From Tildeniella nuda ZEHNDER 1965/U140 (lineage in GTDB: Bacteria; Cyanobacteriota; Cyanobacteriia; Leptolyngbyales; Leptolyngbyaceae), in NCBI GenBank assembly GCA_019358895.1, contig JAHHIG010000006.1, forward strand, positions 62,001 to 126,000: a DNA stretch of 64,000 nt, written 5' to 3'. Position numbers and translations under genes: made by a program. The first letter of the stretch is position 1. Each line of letters opens with the position of its first letter. Shown here piece after piece: positions 55,264 through 58,181 of the stretch. The notes beneath the pieces were generated by a model that was given only the letters and a program-made list of their open reading frames with translations, had not been told where the DNA came from and made no database searches.

Positions 55264-56577
55264 ATGCTTTACCAATGGCAATTTTATCCCTATCAACGGC
55301 GCTTTAAACAAGCACTGCAAACCAGCCACGGTGCTTGGGTCATGCGCGATGGCATCATTTTGCGATTAGTGGATGATGCTGGTAACATCGGCTGGGGCGA
55401 AATTGCGCCTATACCCTGGTTTGGCTCCGAAACCATTGAGCAAGCGTTGGCATTTTGTCGTCAACTGCCGTCAGCGCTTTCCAGCGATCTGATTTTCTCG
55501 ATCCCTGACACGCTGCCATCCTGTCAATTTGCCTTTGAATCGGCATGGGAGGGGGTGAGAGAGCAGGCGATCGACAATGCTGAACCGCAGAGACGCAGAG
55601 ACGCAGAGAGACAGGTGCCGTTAGTACTTGAGAACTCGACGCTTCGACCTCAGAACTCGAACATTGCGGCTCAGAACTCGGCACTCCGACCTCAGAACTC
55701 GATCGTTGCAGTTCAGAACTCGATCGTTGCAGTTCAGAACTCGGCACTCCGACCTCAGGACTCGATCGTTGCAGCTCAGAACTCGACACTTCGACCTCAG
55801 AACTCGACACTTCGACCTCAGAACTCGAACATTGCAGCTCAGAACTCAAAACCTGACCTACTCCCTCCCCCCCCTCACTCCTCCCCCCTCACTCCTCCCC
55901 CCTCACTCCTCACTCCTCCCCCCTCACCCTCCCACAGCGCCCTCCTACCAGCGGGAGAAGCCGCCCTACACGCCTGGAAACCACTCTGGGAGCAAGGCTT
56001 CCGTACCTTTAAGTGGAAAATTGGGGTTCACGCGATCGCCATCGAACTTGAGATCCTTCACCGACTCACTCAAGAGTTGCCTGAAGCAGCAAAATTGCGC
56101 CTGGATGCAAACGGTGGTCTCCGCTTTGATGACGCAACGCAATGGCTAGAACGGTGTGACACGATCGCCGCCAAGCCAAACCTGTTAGTCACGATCGAAT
56201 ACGTTGAGCAACCATTACAGGCATCCCAGTTTGAAGCAATGCAAGACTTGAGCCAGCGCTATCGAACGCCGATCGCCCTGGATGAATCCGTTGCCACGCT
56301 CCAACAGCTACAAGCCTGTTATGAAAAGGGTTGGACGGGAGTGTTTGTGATTAAGCCTGCGATCATTGGTTCGCCTTCTCGCCTGCGCCAGTTTTGTCAG
56401 ACCCATACAATCGATGCTGTCTTTTCATCTGCGTTTGAAACGGCGATCGGACGGCAAGCAGGGCTAAAACTGTCAGCAGAGTTAGCGAACCCCGATCGAG
56501 CAGTGGGCTATGGGACAACACACTGGTTTGATGATGCCGCAACCGACGACTTTGAGCAGCTATGGCAGACCCTTTAA
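55264..56577 (+). CDS. menC: o-Succinylbenzoate synthase with a repeat-encoded insert of about 115 residues
   Basis: Enolase-superfamily enzyme dehydrating SHCHC to OSB. The catalytic frame is intact: RTFKWKIGVHA (Lys), AKLRLDANGGLRF (Asp), IEYVEQPL (Glu), PIALDESVATL (Asp/Glu) and VFVIKPAIIGS (Lys). The protein has 437 residues where about 320 is normal. The extra part, residues about 107-222, reads as 7-residue units (NSTLRPQ, NSNIAAQ, NSALRPQ, NSIVAVQ, DSIVAAQ) and then a Pro/Ser-rich stretch. It separates the N-terminal capping domain from the barrel. The barrel motifs after it suggest activity, but this is unproven. menE overlaps its end by 16 bp. Confidence 0.93.
   Translation: MLYQWQFYPYQRRFKQALQTSHGAWVMRDGIILRLVDDAGNIGWGEIAPIPWFGSETIEQALAFCRQLPSALSSDLIFSIPDTLPSCQFAFESAWEGVREQAIDNAEPQRRRDAERQVPLVLENSTLRPQNSNIAAQNSALRPQNSIVAVQNSIVAVQNSALRPQDSIVAAQNSTLRPQNSTLRPQNSNIAAQNSKPDLLPPPPHSSPLTPPPSLLTPPPSPSHSALLPAGEAALHAWKPLWEQGFRTFKWKIGVHAIAIELEILHRLTQELPEAAKLRLDANGGLRFDDATQWLERCDTIAAKPNLLVTIEYVEQPLQASQFEAMQDLSQRYRTPIALDESVATLQQLQACYEKGWTGVFVIKPAIIGSPSRLRQFCQTHTIDAVFSSAFETAIGRQAGLKLSAELANPDRAVGYGTTHWFDDAATDDFEQLWQTL
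55583..55610 (+). repeat. AACCGCAGAGACGCAGAG composite-element left end (menC copy)
   Basis: AACCGCAGAGACGCAGAGAC followed by GCAGAGAG has period-8 units (CAGAGACG). The same sequence starts at 56879 and 57290 inside menE, each time at the left end of an insert. It is a known type of dispersed cyanobacterial repeat. Confidence 0.8.
55630..55839 (+). repeat. Ten tandem 21-bp units inside menC
   Basis: Ten units each 21 bp long begin CAGAACTCG (first unit GAGAACTCG, seventh CAGGACTCG). Two subtypes alternate in the order A B A B B A B A A B: type A ends (C)TTCGACCT/CTCCGACCT and type B ends GTTGCAGTT/ATTGCGGCT or close variants. All are in frame and encode 7-residue units. A partial eleventh unit and a C-rich run (CCTCACTCCTCCCCC, to about 55930) follow. 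Confidence 0.92.
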
Positions 56578-58181
56578 CCTACTTCAAGCAACGGTATGAC
56601 GATGATTGGCTAGTTGGTTACGACAGCCAAGACTTTTTTGCTTTGGCGGAGCGAGTGCTGGGTGAGTTGCGATCGTGCCCTCACCGCGAGTTACCCCTCA
56701 CCATCCTCCTGGCAGAACGTGATCCCCTGAAGTTTCTGGCTCATTTCATTGCTGCCTGCGCTACTAACTGCCACATTTTTCTCGCTAACCCCGACTGGGT
56801 TGATGCTGAATGGCAACAGGTGTTTGAGTTGGTTGAGCCAGATTTAGTGTGGGGCGATCGGGCAATTCACCAATGGAGAACCGCAGAGACGCGGAGACGC
56901 AGAGACGCAGCAGAAGGCAACAGCCACTCTCTACTCCCCACTCCCCACTCCCCACTCCCCACTCCCCACATCATGATCCCCACGGGTGGCACCTCCGGTA
57001 AAATTCGCTTTGCCATTCATACCTGGGAAACACTCATGGCATCCGTTCAGGGTTTTCGTGAGTACTTTGAGATTGATCAGGTCAATTCGTTCTGTGTCTT
57101 GCCGCTCTATCATGTCAGCGGTTTGATGCAGTTTCTGCGATCGTTCACCTCTGGTGGTCGGTTCGTTGTGCTGCCGTTTAAAGCGGTGGAAGCGGGCGAT
57201 CGCAGTTCTGTTAACCCGGAAGAGTTTTTTCTATCTCTGGTACCAACTCAGCTTCAGCGGTTGCTTGATGGGGAAAAGGCGGAGGGGAAAACCGCAGAGA
57301 CGCAGAGACGCAGAGAGGCTTTCTTCATACCAAACTCAAAACTCTTTGGCGAAGCACCACTCCCCACTCCCCACTCCCCACTCCCCACTCCCTACTCCCC
57401 ACTCCCCACTCCCCACTCCTCGATCGCCTGGTTATCTCGCTTCCACACCGTTCTCCTCGGCGGCGCACCCGCCTGGTCAGGGTTGCTAGAACAGGCGAGA
57501 AGCCATCGCATCCGCCTTGCGCCCACCTACGGCATGACTGAAACTGCATCCCAGATTGCCACCCTCAAACCAGATGACTTTCTCAACGGACACACTAATG
57601 CTGGACAGGTCTTGCCCCACGCTCACATCACCATCCGCAAACCATCCGGCGCAGTTCTGAACGCTCACGAAATTGGTAACGTCACAATCCAGGCAAAATC
57701 ATTAGCGATCGGCTCCTATCCCTTCACCTCCCCATCCCCCCATCTCCTCCTCCCTCCCTCCCACACCCCACACCCCACACCCCACACCCCACCCGACGAC
57801 CTCGGCTACTTCGACACTGACGGCTACCTGCACATCATCGGACGGCACAGCGACAAGATCATCACGGGTGGCGAGAATGTGTTTCCGGCAGAAGTAGAAG
57901 CAGCAATTCGATCGACCGCTCTGGTACAAGATATCTGCGTGCTTGGGGTGAACGATCGCCACTGGGGACAAGCGATCGCAGCCGTCTATATTCCAATTGC
58001 TGCTGAAACTCCAGCCGTCCTGATCCAGGCTGCTTTAACCGACAAATTGAGCAAATTTAAGCGCCCCAAACACTGGATTGCGGTTGCACAGTTGCCCCGC
58101 AATGTTCAAGGTAAGGTGAATCGACTACACGTAGAGGCGATCGCTAAGGCTTGGCTGTCCACCGTAGCAACCATTGATTAA
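56562..58181 (+). CDS. menE: 2-Succinylbenzoate-CoA ligase with three repeat-derived inserts
   Basis: Acyl-CoA-synthetase family enzyme activating OSB with ATP and CoA. Motifs: P-loop IMIPTGGTSGKIRF, LPLYHVSGLMQFLRSF, YGMTETASQIA, and GYFDTDGYLHIIGRHSDKIITGGENVFPAEVE. The 539 residues contain three low-complexity inserts at DNA 56878-56972, 57288-57421 and 57720-57798 (RRRRDAAEGN...; LPTPHSPLPTPYSP; SPSPHLLLPPSHTP). They all fall between conserved blocks. It overlaps menC by 16 bp at the start and the DHNA-CoA thioesterase gene by 38 bp at the 3' end. Confidence 0.93.
   Translation: MADPLTYFKQRYDDDWLVGYDSQDFFALAERVLGELRSCPHRELPLTILLAERDPLKFLAHFIAACATNCHIFLANPDWVDAEWQQVFELVEPDLVWGDRAIHQWRTAETRRRRDAAEGNSHSLLPTPHSPLPTPHIMIPTGGTSGKIRFAIHTWETLMASVQGFREYFEIDQVNSFCVLPLYHVSGLMQFLRSFTSGGRFVVLPFKAVEAGDRSSVNPEEFFLSLVPTQLQRLLDGEKAEGKTAETQRRREAFFIPNSKLFGEAPLPTPHSPLPTPYSPLPTPHSSIAWLSRFHTVLLGGAPAWSGLLEQARSHRIRLAPTYGMTETASQIATLKPDDFLNGHTNAGQVLPHAHITIRKPSGAVLNAHEIGNVTIQAKSLAIGSYPFTSPSPHLLLPPSHTPHPTPHTPPDDLGYFDTDGYLHIIGRHSDKIITGGENVFPAEVEAAIRSTALVQDICVLGVNDRHWGQAIAAVYIPIAAETPAVLIQAALTDKLSKFKRPKHWIAVAQLPRNVQGKVNRLHVEAIAKAWLSTVATID
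56878..56972 (+). repeat. menE insert 1 (composite repeat)
   Basis: AACCGCAGAGACGCGGAGAC (56879 onward) and then CTCCCCA heptamers (about 56933-56968) flank GCAGAAGGCAACAGCCACTC. It sits just before the P-loop of MenE. Confidence 0.85.
57288..57421 (+). repeat. menE insert 2 (composite repeat)
   Basis: AACCGCAGAGACGCAGAGAC (57290 onward) is joined through about 40 nt of unique-looking sequence to about nine CTCCCCA-type heptamers (57359-57418). Its left and right ends match insert 1. Confidence 0.85.
57720..57798 (+). repeat. menE insert 3 (C-rich heptamer block)
   Basis: CCCCATC/CCTCCCTCCC stretches followed by ACACCCC/CCCCACA units repeated about five times, encoding Pro/Ser/His-rich residues between GSYPFTS and DDLGYFD. 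The AACCGCAG left end is missing here. Confidence 0.8.

Follow-up and report, generated by a model that had tools for sequence, protein, structure and literature searches.

Composite heptamer and octamer repeats lying in frame in menC, menE and other conserved genes of the cyanobacterium Tildeniella nuda

Short tandemly repeated repetitive sequences (STRRs) of filamentous cyanobacteria were reportedly described by Mazel et al. in 1990, and Elhai et al. are said to have found, in 2008, that heptamer arrays of Nostoc punctiforme harbour small dispersed repeats (SDRs). Here, we analyse a 64,000-nucleotide stretch of the genome of Tildeniella nuda ZEHNDER 1965/U140 (contig JAHHIG010000006.1, positions 62,001 to 126,000), hereafter the window, within which plain coordinates are counted, and in which composite repeats of 7- and 8-base words lie in frame in menC and menE. 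By unit and host, the closest known elements are the STRRs, and by in-frame behaviour the Rickettsia palindromic elements. With STRRs, the composites share heptamer units, the use of several words, a cyanobacterial host and a mostly intergenic placement (172 of 214 arrays sampled here were not assigned as coding), whereas they differ in forming fixed-order composites in frame in many conserved genes, with an octamer among the words. A likeness to the SDRs of Nostoc is seen by eye in palindrome-like stretches inside the CAAAACTC array of mutS in two members of the genus (G002 and G006); the main element here, however, corresponds to the host array.

A study of Nostoc reports that a G-rich heptamer is under-represented in coding regions (PMC4692102). 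Rickettsia palindromic elements measure 105–146 bp, carry terminal inverted repeats and form long stem-loops; they lie between genes and also in frame in conserved protein genes, where they are tolerated, and a guanylate kinase with such an insert is active (PMC2229807). The composites resemble them in having in-frame copies in conserved genes (21 of 48 copies of the L word defined below, in hosts such as MutS, PurL and an LpxB-related protein), but their lengths vary, each of their words encodes an unchanged peptide whichever frame is used, and the palindrome test fails, as 0 of 21 coding L copies has a second inverted arm within 80 bases. A microsatellite survey of Leptolyngbya-like genomes concerns the same organism group and likewise includes tandem repeats in coding regions; its units are of 1–6 bases, so that heptamers and octamers lie beyond its range (PMC8619395). 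No title or abstract opening that we searched describes composite heptamers inserted in frame in genes of cyanobacteria, the search having left out most subscription papers.

Inserts in menC and menE

An earlier note, made from the letters of the window, had proposed that three inserts, located in menC and menE, begin with one and the same left end. This is confirmed well beyond chance: AACCGCAGAGACGCAGAG occurs exactly at 55583 and 57290 and with one mismatch at 56879, and at up to three mismatches it has six matches in the window, counting at each site a second match one unit further on, against a mean of 0.09 in shuffled sequence (0 of 100 shuffles reach six). Both genes are on the plus strand, were assigned by Pfam and NCBIfam and consist of one single open frame each: menC, for o-succinylbenzoate synthase, spans 55264–56577 (437 amino acids, aa), and menE, for o-succinylbenzoate-CoA ligase, spans 56562–58181 (539 aa), its best NCBIfam model scoring 610 bits, slightly under the strict cut-off of 640. 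That the inserts lie in frame between conserved blocks of adjacent pathway genes is borne out by these open frames and by the flanking blocks of relatives; in this comparison they appear as extra residues between conserved blocks, and relatives do not have the same residues as ordinary conserved sequence.

The menC insert, C1, forms a variable loop of 131 aa between FAFESA and ALLPAG (55546–55938, plus strand), supported by comparison with relatives and by the AlphaFold2 predicted local distance difference test (pLDDT), with a repeat-derived portion at approximately 55583–55935. It opens with an L module made of the octamer CGCAGAGA and translated EPQRRRDAE (55583–55614, plus strand), continues with 10.3 copies of a 21-base unit, N21 (55631–55847, plus strand), common to a hydantoinase gene of the source genome (G000 C1:105.6 kb), and closes with a C-rich 14-base array of CTCACTCCTCCCCC (55861–55929, plus strand). 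The inserts of menE are likewise on the plus strand. E1 (56879–56969), directly before IPTGGTSG, consists of an L module (56879–56910, translated TAETRRRRDA) and 6.6 units of the R heptamer (56924–56969), while E2 (57290–57421) consists of an L module (57290–57319, translated TAETQRRREA), an M-like word (57330–57344) and nine units of the R heptamer with 96% matches (57357–57419). E3 (~57733–57792), before DDLG, is a C-rich insert without an L module that ends in 4.7 copies of CCCACAC (57760–57792). The expected C-rich heptamer endings are found for the inserts at 56879 and 57290 (CCACTCC) but not for menC, which ends in the 14-base array. Three is the correct count of inserts opened by L; E3 and the inserts in menD and lpxB described below had been overlooked.

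In the AlphaFold2 model of MenC, segments with pLDDT below 50 are confined to residues 120–214, inside the C1 loop, and the remaining fold is confident; Foldseek matches this model to Thermosynechococcus MenC (3h7v) with a template-modelling (TM) score of 0.88 by target. The model suggests that the MenC insert is unstructured and the enzyme fold intact. The MenE model, with a mean pLDDT of 73 and low values in the inserts, is like B. subtilis MenE (TM 0.64–0.66 by target in the best rows). RNA folds, calculated for E1 and E2 only, show no added stability over shuffles (z +0.77 and +0.90), for which reason an RNA hairpin was rejected as a conserved feature; none of the 20 listed inverted-repeat pairs frames an insert.

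Architecture, spread and reading frames of the composites

The words of the composites follow a fixed order, namely a G-rich word, L (the CGCAGAGA octamer), M (CAAAACT) or the 21-base unit, and R (CCCCACT/A), with single words sometimes missing; the 21-base unit takes the place of M in menC and in the hydantoinase gene. Arrays of R and M have a period of 7, those of L a period of 8. A match to R follows L within 180 bases in 11 of 21 coding copies and precedes it in none of the 21. Among neighbouring pairs in the 864-kb sample described below, the G-rich array precedes the C-rich one in all 4 coding cases and in 14 of 15 non-coding ones; since this order is identical on both strands, it belongs to the composite and not to the gene. 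The composite of menC (353 bases) aligns along its length, with gaps in the array, with that of the hydantoinase gene (286 bases), the L-to-N21 joint included, and the L-to-M joint CGCGGAGATTTAATTCAAAACTC is found with up to three mismatches at 13 places in five of the seven genus genomes compared (the source included), against 0 for a reversed control. Because such joints are not repeats and yet are common to unrelated places, they argue for copying and against separate growth at each site. The proposal of one element class thus holds for a composite class and not for one insertion made three times: words are combined differently, and the words of other members differ. An inverted second arm within 80 bases of L is present in 0 of 21 sense coding copies and 9 of 26 other copies. 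Outside sense open reading frames (ORFs), L often faces its own inverted copy in a hairpin-like arrangement, as at L152 (C4:113240–113277), L151, L155 (C9:656195–656249) and L176.

Across the 6.08-Mb genome, CCGCAGAGACGCAGAG has 58 matches at up to one mismatch, compared with 11 for the reversed pattern. Merged within 60 bases, these give 48 L copies, of which 21 are sense in ORFs, 1 is antisense and 26 are other, an open frame having to reach 250 aa to be counted as an ORF. Beyond the window, 18 sense copies sit in 15 other open frames, whose products, according to Pfam and NCBIfam, include MutS, PurL, an LpxB-related protein, a RecJ-like nuclease, a hydantoinase, an Orn/Lys/Arg decarboxylase, a glycosyl-hydrolase family 116 protein (three copies) and SNF2, glycosyltransferase and TPR proteins; the 1427-aa frame L164 has no match in Pfam or NCBIfam. 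Exact copies of the L motif number 26, 10, 6, 3, 2, 1 and 0 in the seven genus genomes and 1 among 49 others, so that hardly any exact copy lies outside the genus. The motif was rejected as the source of the matches that a protein search with the MutS insert gave in many frames of a genome of another genus (G010), where the DNA motif is absent at up to one mismatch; G010 carries the M-to-R joint (five overlapping matches), which implies that matches between genera reflect similar words, not L.

For a count of arrays irrespective of L, we sampled 864 kb, or 14% of the genome, made up of the window and four stretches of 200 kb, and called an array coding by codon usage on both flanks. This yielded 214 arrays of period 7, 8, 14, 21 or 28, of which 42 are coding and 172 were not so assigned, although ORFs cover 81–86% of the stretches measured. 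Eight coding arrays are in the window and 34 in the remaining 800 kb; as the window was chosen for having arrays, the fair count is 34 in 800 kb. Together with the 18 L copies in other frames, these 34 indicate that such inserts are not rare in this genome, and they give no support to the view that the inserts are special to menC and menE. Two period-14 coding arrays of about two copies with hydrophobic peptides (C9:120150 and C9:109139) are probably ordinary coding sequence and were kept in the counts. One of the 42 (C24:86237–86288) was counted in a 227-aa frame, the totals being kept as computed; its reading as a coding array with R antisense was rejected, since on the opposite strand it lies in sense within a frame of 1056 aa.

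Neither 7 nor 8 is divisible by three, so that a repeated unit of either length passes through all three phases. The cyclic peptide is the same in every frame, AETQRRRD for L, KTQNSKL for M, PTPHSPL for R and AEGRRQK for K (GGCAGAA), and all words tried are without a stop on the sense strand. Antisense, a stop occurs in M, Q (GCGGTCA), AATTCAA and one frame of the 21-mer, and L, K and CCCCACA are hydrophobic; GGGAGTC is found on both strands in the genus and is hydrophilic either way. Sense L copies are distributed 14/5/2 over the three frames and the 42 coding arrays 15/14/13. As all three frames are used, what the inserts share is DNA and not peptide, and peptide-level selection was rejected as the cause of their similarity. 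Being stop-free and hydrophilic, the sense peptides would be expected to form a disordered loop on a normal enzyme.

Loops of MenC, MenE and MutS in relatives

The loops were compared among the seven genus genomes, which include Leptolyngbya sp. FACHB-321, Lyngbya sp. HA4199-MV5, Stenomitos rutilans, S. frigidus ULC18 and a Centralia metagenome-assembled genome (MAG), and in genomes outside the genus where the site was readable. The MenC loop has 131 aa here and 173, 152, 103, 38, 30 and 21 aa in the other six, so that four of seven carry a long insert and two an ordinary loop (21 and 30 aa); outside the genus it measures 13–35 aa (10 genomes read). The second MenE loop has 58 aa here and 25–65 aa in 7 of 7 genus genomes, where its inserts are worded differently, compared with 7–22 aa in 15 of 16 genomes outside the genus, the remaining one (G019) having a C-rich loop of 45 aa. 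Lengths of MenE loops 1 and 3 are left out, because the search expression shortened loop 1 in G002, G004 and G005 and read loop 3 in four genomes only. In three genus members (L070, L071, L073), loop 3 holds a different segment, SGGLGELGPQxAGxRGEVPRTQ, which indicates that the loop accepts unrelated elements.

One open frame covers the reference in 79 of 80 named MenE homologues, the remaining one falling two residues under the cut-off, and likewise in 72 of 77 MenC hits, the exceptions being four that start at a contig edge, plus L078. Insertions of at least 5 aa cluster in few loops; there, a Symploca MAG and several genomes of Nostoc show repeat-coded loops of their own, for example with GEWGVGS or AEGRRQK repeats.

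In MutS, repeat composites lie in frame directly before Walker A, forming a loop of 35–89 aa in 7 of 7 genus genomes with differing words (source genome, L155:5679–8585, at G000 C9:659678–662584; other members, L240–L245). Outside the genus, 13 genomes were searched and 10 were readable; nine have 18–30 aa, one of which (G007) includes a small C-rich array, while the loop of G037, at 49 aa, contains a G-rich one. The MutS inserts are 24–68% identical among genus members, calculated over the longer insert so that length differences count, compared with 75–88% for the flanks. With flanks conserved and insert words varying, the sites are stable while their contents change. A second repeat-like insert lies between MutS domains II and III in G004, G005 and G006, and the palindrome-like stretches mentioned above, seen by eye, are nested in the CAAAACTC arrays of L240 and L241 (G002 and G006). 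Inserts of one kind recur in these loops in genomes from several sequencing projects, judged by accession prefix, which makes assembly error unlikely as their source.

Origin of the inserts and further arrays in the window

We consider it probable, with good though not complete confidence, that the inserts are dispersed composite repeats that spread at the DNA level and change by slippage, that they are filtered by what the host protein tolerates, and that their words are blind to reading frame. The fixed order, the shared joints, the use of three frames, the sense bias of L, the position in loops and the turnover between species are directly observed. On this reading, the composite would spread and change as DNA, mostly between genes, by copying between sites, as the shared joints indicate, through a mechanism that we can only infer; slippage within arrays is suggested by the tandem repeats and by the differences in length. 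A copy landing in a gene would survive only where the site is a tolerant loop and the whole copy has a length divisible by three, while its 7- or 8-base words would give the same stop-free, hydrophilic peptide in any frame, and the ribosome would presumably build a disordered loop into an enzyme that is normal in other respects. The frame-independent peptide thus probably explains survival in genes; that the inserts are neutral is likewise a supposition.

Several results weigh against this explanation. Under the rule used, 10 of 21 coding L copies lack an R match. Coding status is weakest for L162, L166, L167 and L170, which have no Pfam domain on both sides of the insert, and for L164, which has none. 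The MenE model is of low confidence also at residues 143–145, 325–333, 348–356 and 374–430, the last stretch extending past E3. Among the relatives compared, none that is close has an empty MenE loop 2 or an empty MutS site in which a target duplication could be sought. The hydropathy filter is real but leaky, with the sense peptide more hydrophilic in 19 of 28 arrays whose antisense strand is open in at least one frame (Wilcoxon p 0.0095). Nor does this filter account for R (CCCCACT), which has no stop on either strand and is of mild hydropathy in both directions, and which in ORFs occurs only in sense (15 rows, approximately 13 distinct arrays, three of them in MenE) and 0 times antisense; the fixed word order may account for this.

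The earlier note had left a selected role and a tolerated repeat side by side; both still stand, and tolerance fits best. The inserts could be flexible linkers, docking peptides or length-tunable loops, hence their presence in the same loops across the genus, and the MutS loop and MenE loop 2, expanded in 7 of 7 genus genomes, agree with such a role, as does the L-N21 type of MenC insert, which is common to four genus members and thus persistent. However, sequence, length and even the repeat word vary by species at one site, all frames are used, 172 of 214 arrays lie outside coding frames in DNA that is mostly ORF, two genus members have a short MenC loop and most loops outside the genus are short, which together make selection unlikely in our estimation. 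Far less credible is a post-transcriptional or post-translational removal of the inserts, as an intron, a translational bypass or an intein, leaving a normal enzyme. The proximity of some inserts to active-site motifs (Walker A in MutS, IPTGGTSG in MenE), where an addition seems risky, would favour removal, which would on the other hand permit stops and frameshifts; yet 21 of 21 sense L copies are in open frames (this being also the criterion for the class), the conserved flanks of MenC, MenE and MutS stay in frame, as do nearly all MenE homologues, and the inserts are low-complexity sequence within open frames. Pfam matches of MenC and MenE include no intein family, intron RNA families not having been searched, and the E1 and E2 RNAs, as noted, fold no better than shuffles.

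The arrays might also act as contingency loci, in which a gene is turned off or on by the frameshift that follows when a single 7-base unit is gained or lost. A 7- or 8-base step always breaks the frame, and in-frame heptamer arrays are present in menE (the nine-unit array of E2) and, as heptamer-type words, in the mutS loops of the genus, but the hosts include housekeeping genes, in which off-states would be costly, and span many functional classes, and we regard such switching as improbable. Hardly more plausible, although marginally so, is a reversible mutator switch, in which loss or gain of one 7-base unit before the MutS P-loop would turn mismatch repair off and slippage, itself likely to be raised without MutS, would restore it, the frame-blind words perhaps serving at large as a standing source of new disordered loops. 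With arrays present in mutS and in the menaquinone/phylloquinone genes, switching driven by slippage is open to direct test.

Tolerated, DNA-level spread, in turn, suggests a route by which repeat DNA could enter conserved genes throughout a genome without lethality. Because a unit whose length is not divisible by three gives the same peptide in any frame, only total length and site would matter, a simple and testable rule for the origin of disordered loops, and one that calls for caution in the annotation and structural study of cyanobacterial proteins.

Two further genes of the window, both identified by NCBIfam, bear inserts of this kind. The menD ORF (49821–51665, minus strand, 614 aa) contains in-frame arrays, in reading direction a GTCAGCG-type array at 50951–51018 and then a C-rich one at 50896–50921. 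In the lpxB ORF (42577–44151, plus strand, 524 aa), a G-rich octamer array (42700–42798) lies upstream of the match to the lpxB model (residues 114–512). Between the isochorismate synthase and UbiA-family (menA-like) genes, at 53984–54144, there are arrays of 13.9 copies of AGGGAGT and 6.9 copies of ACCGCTG.

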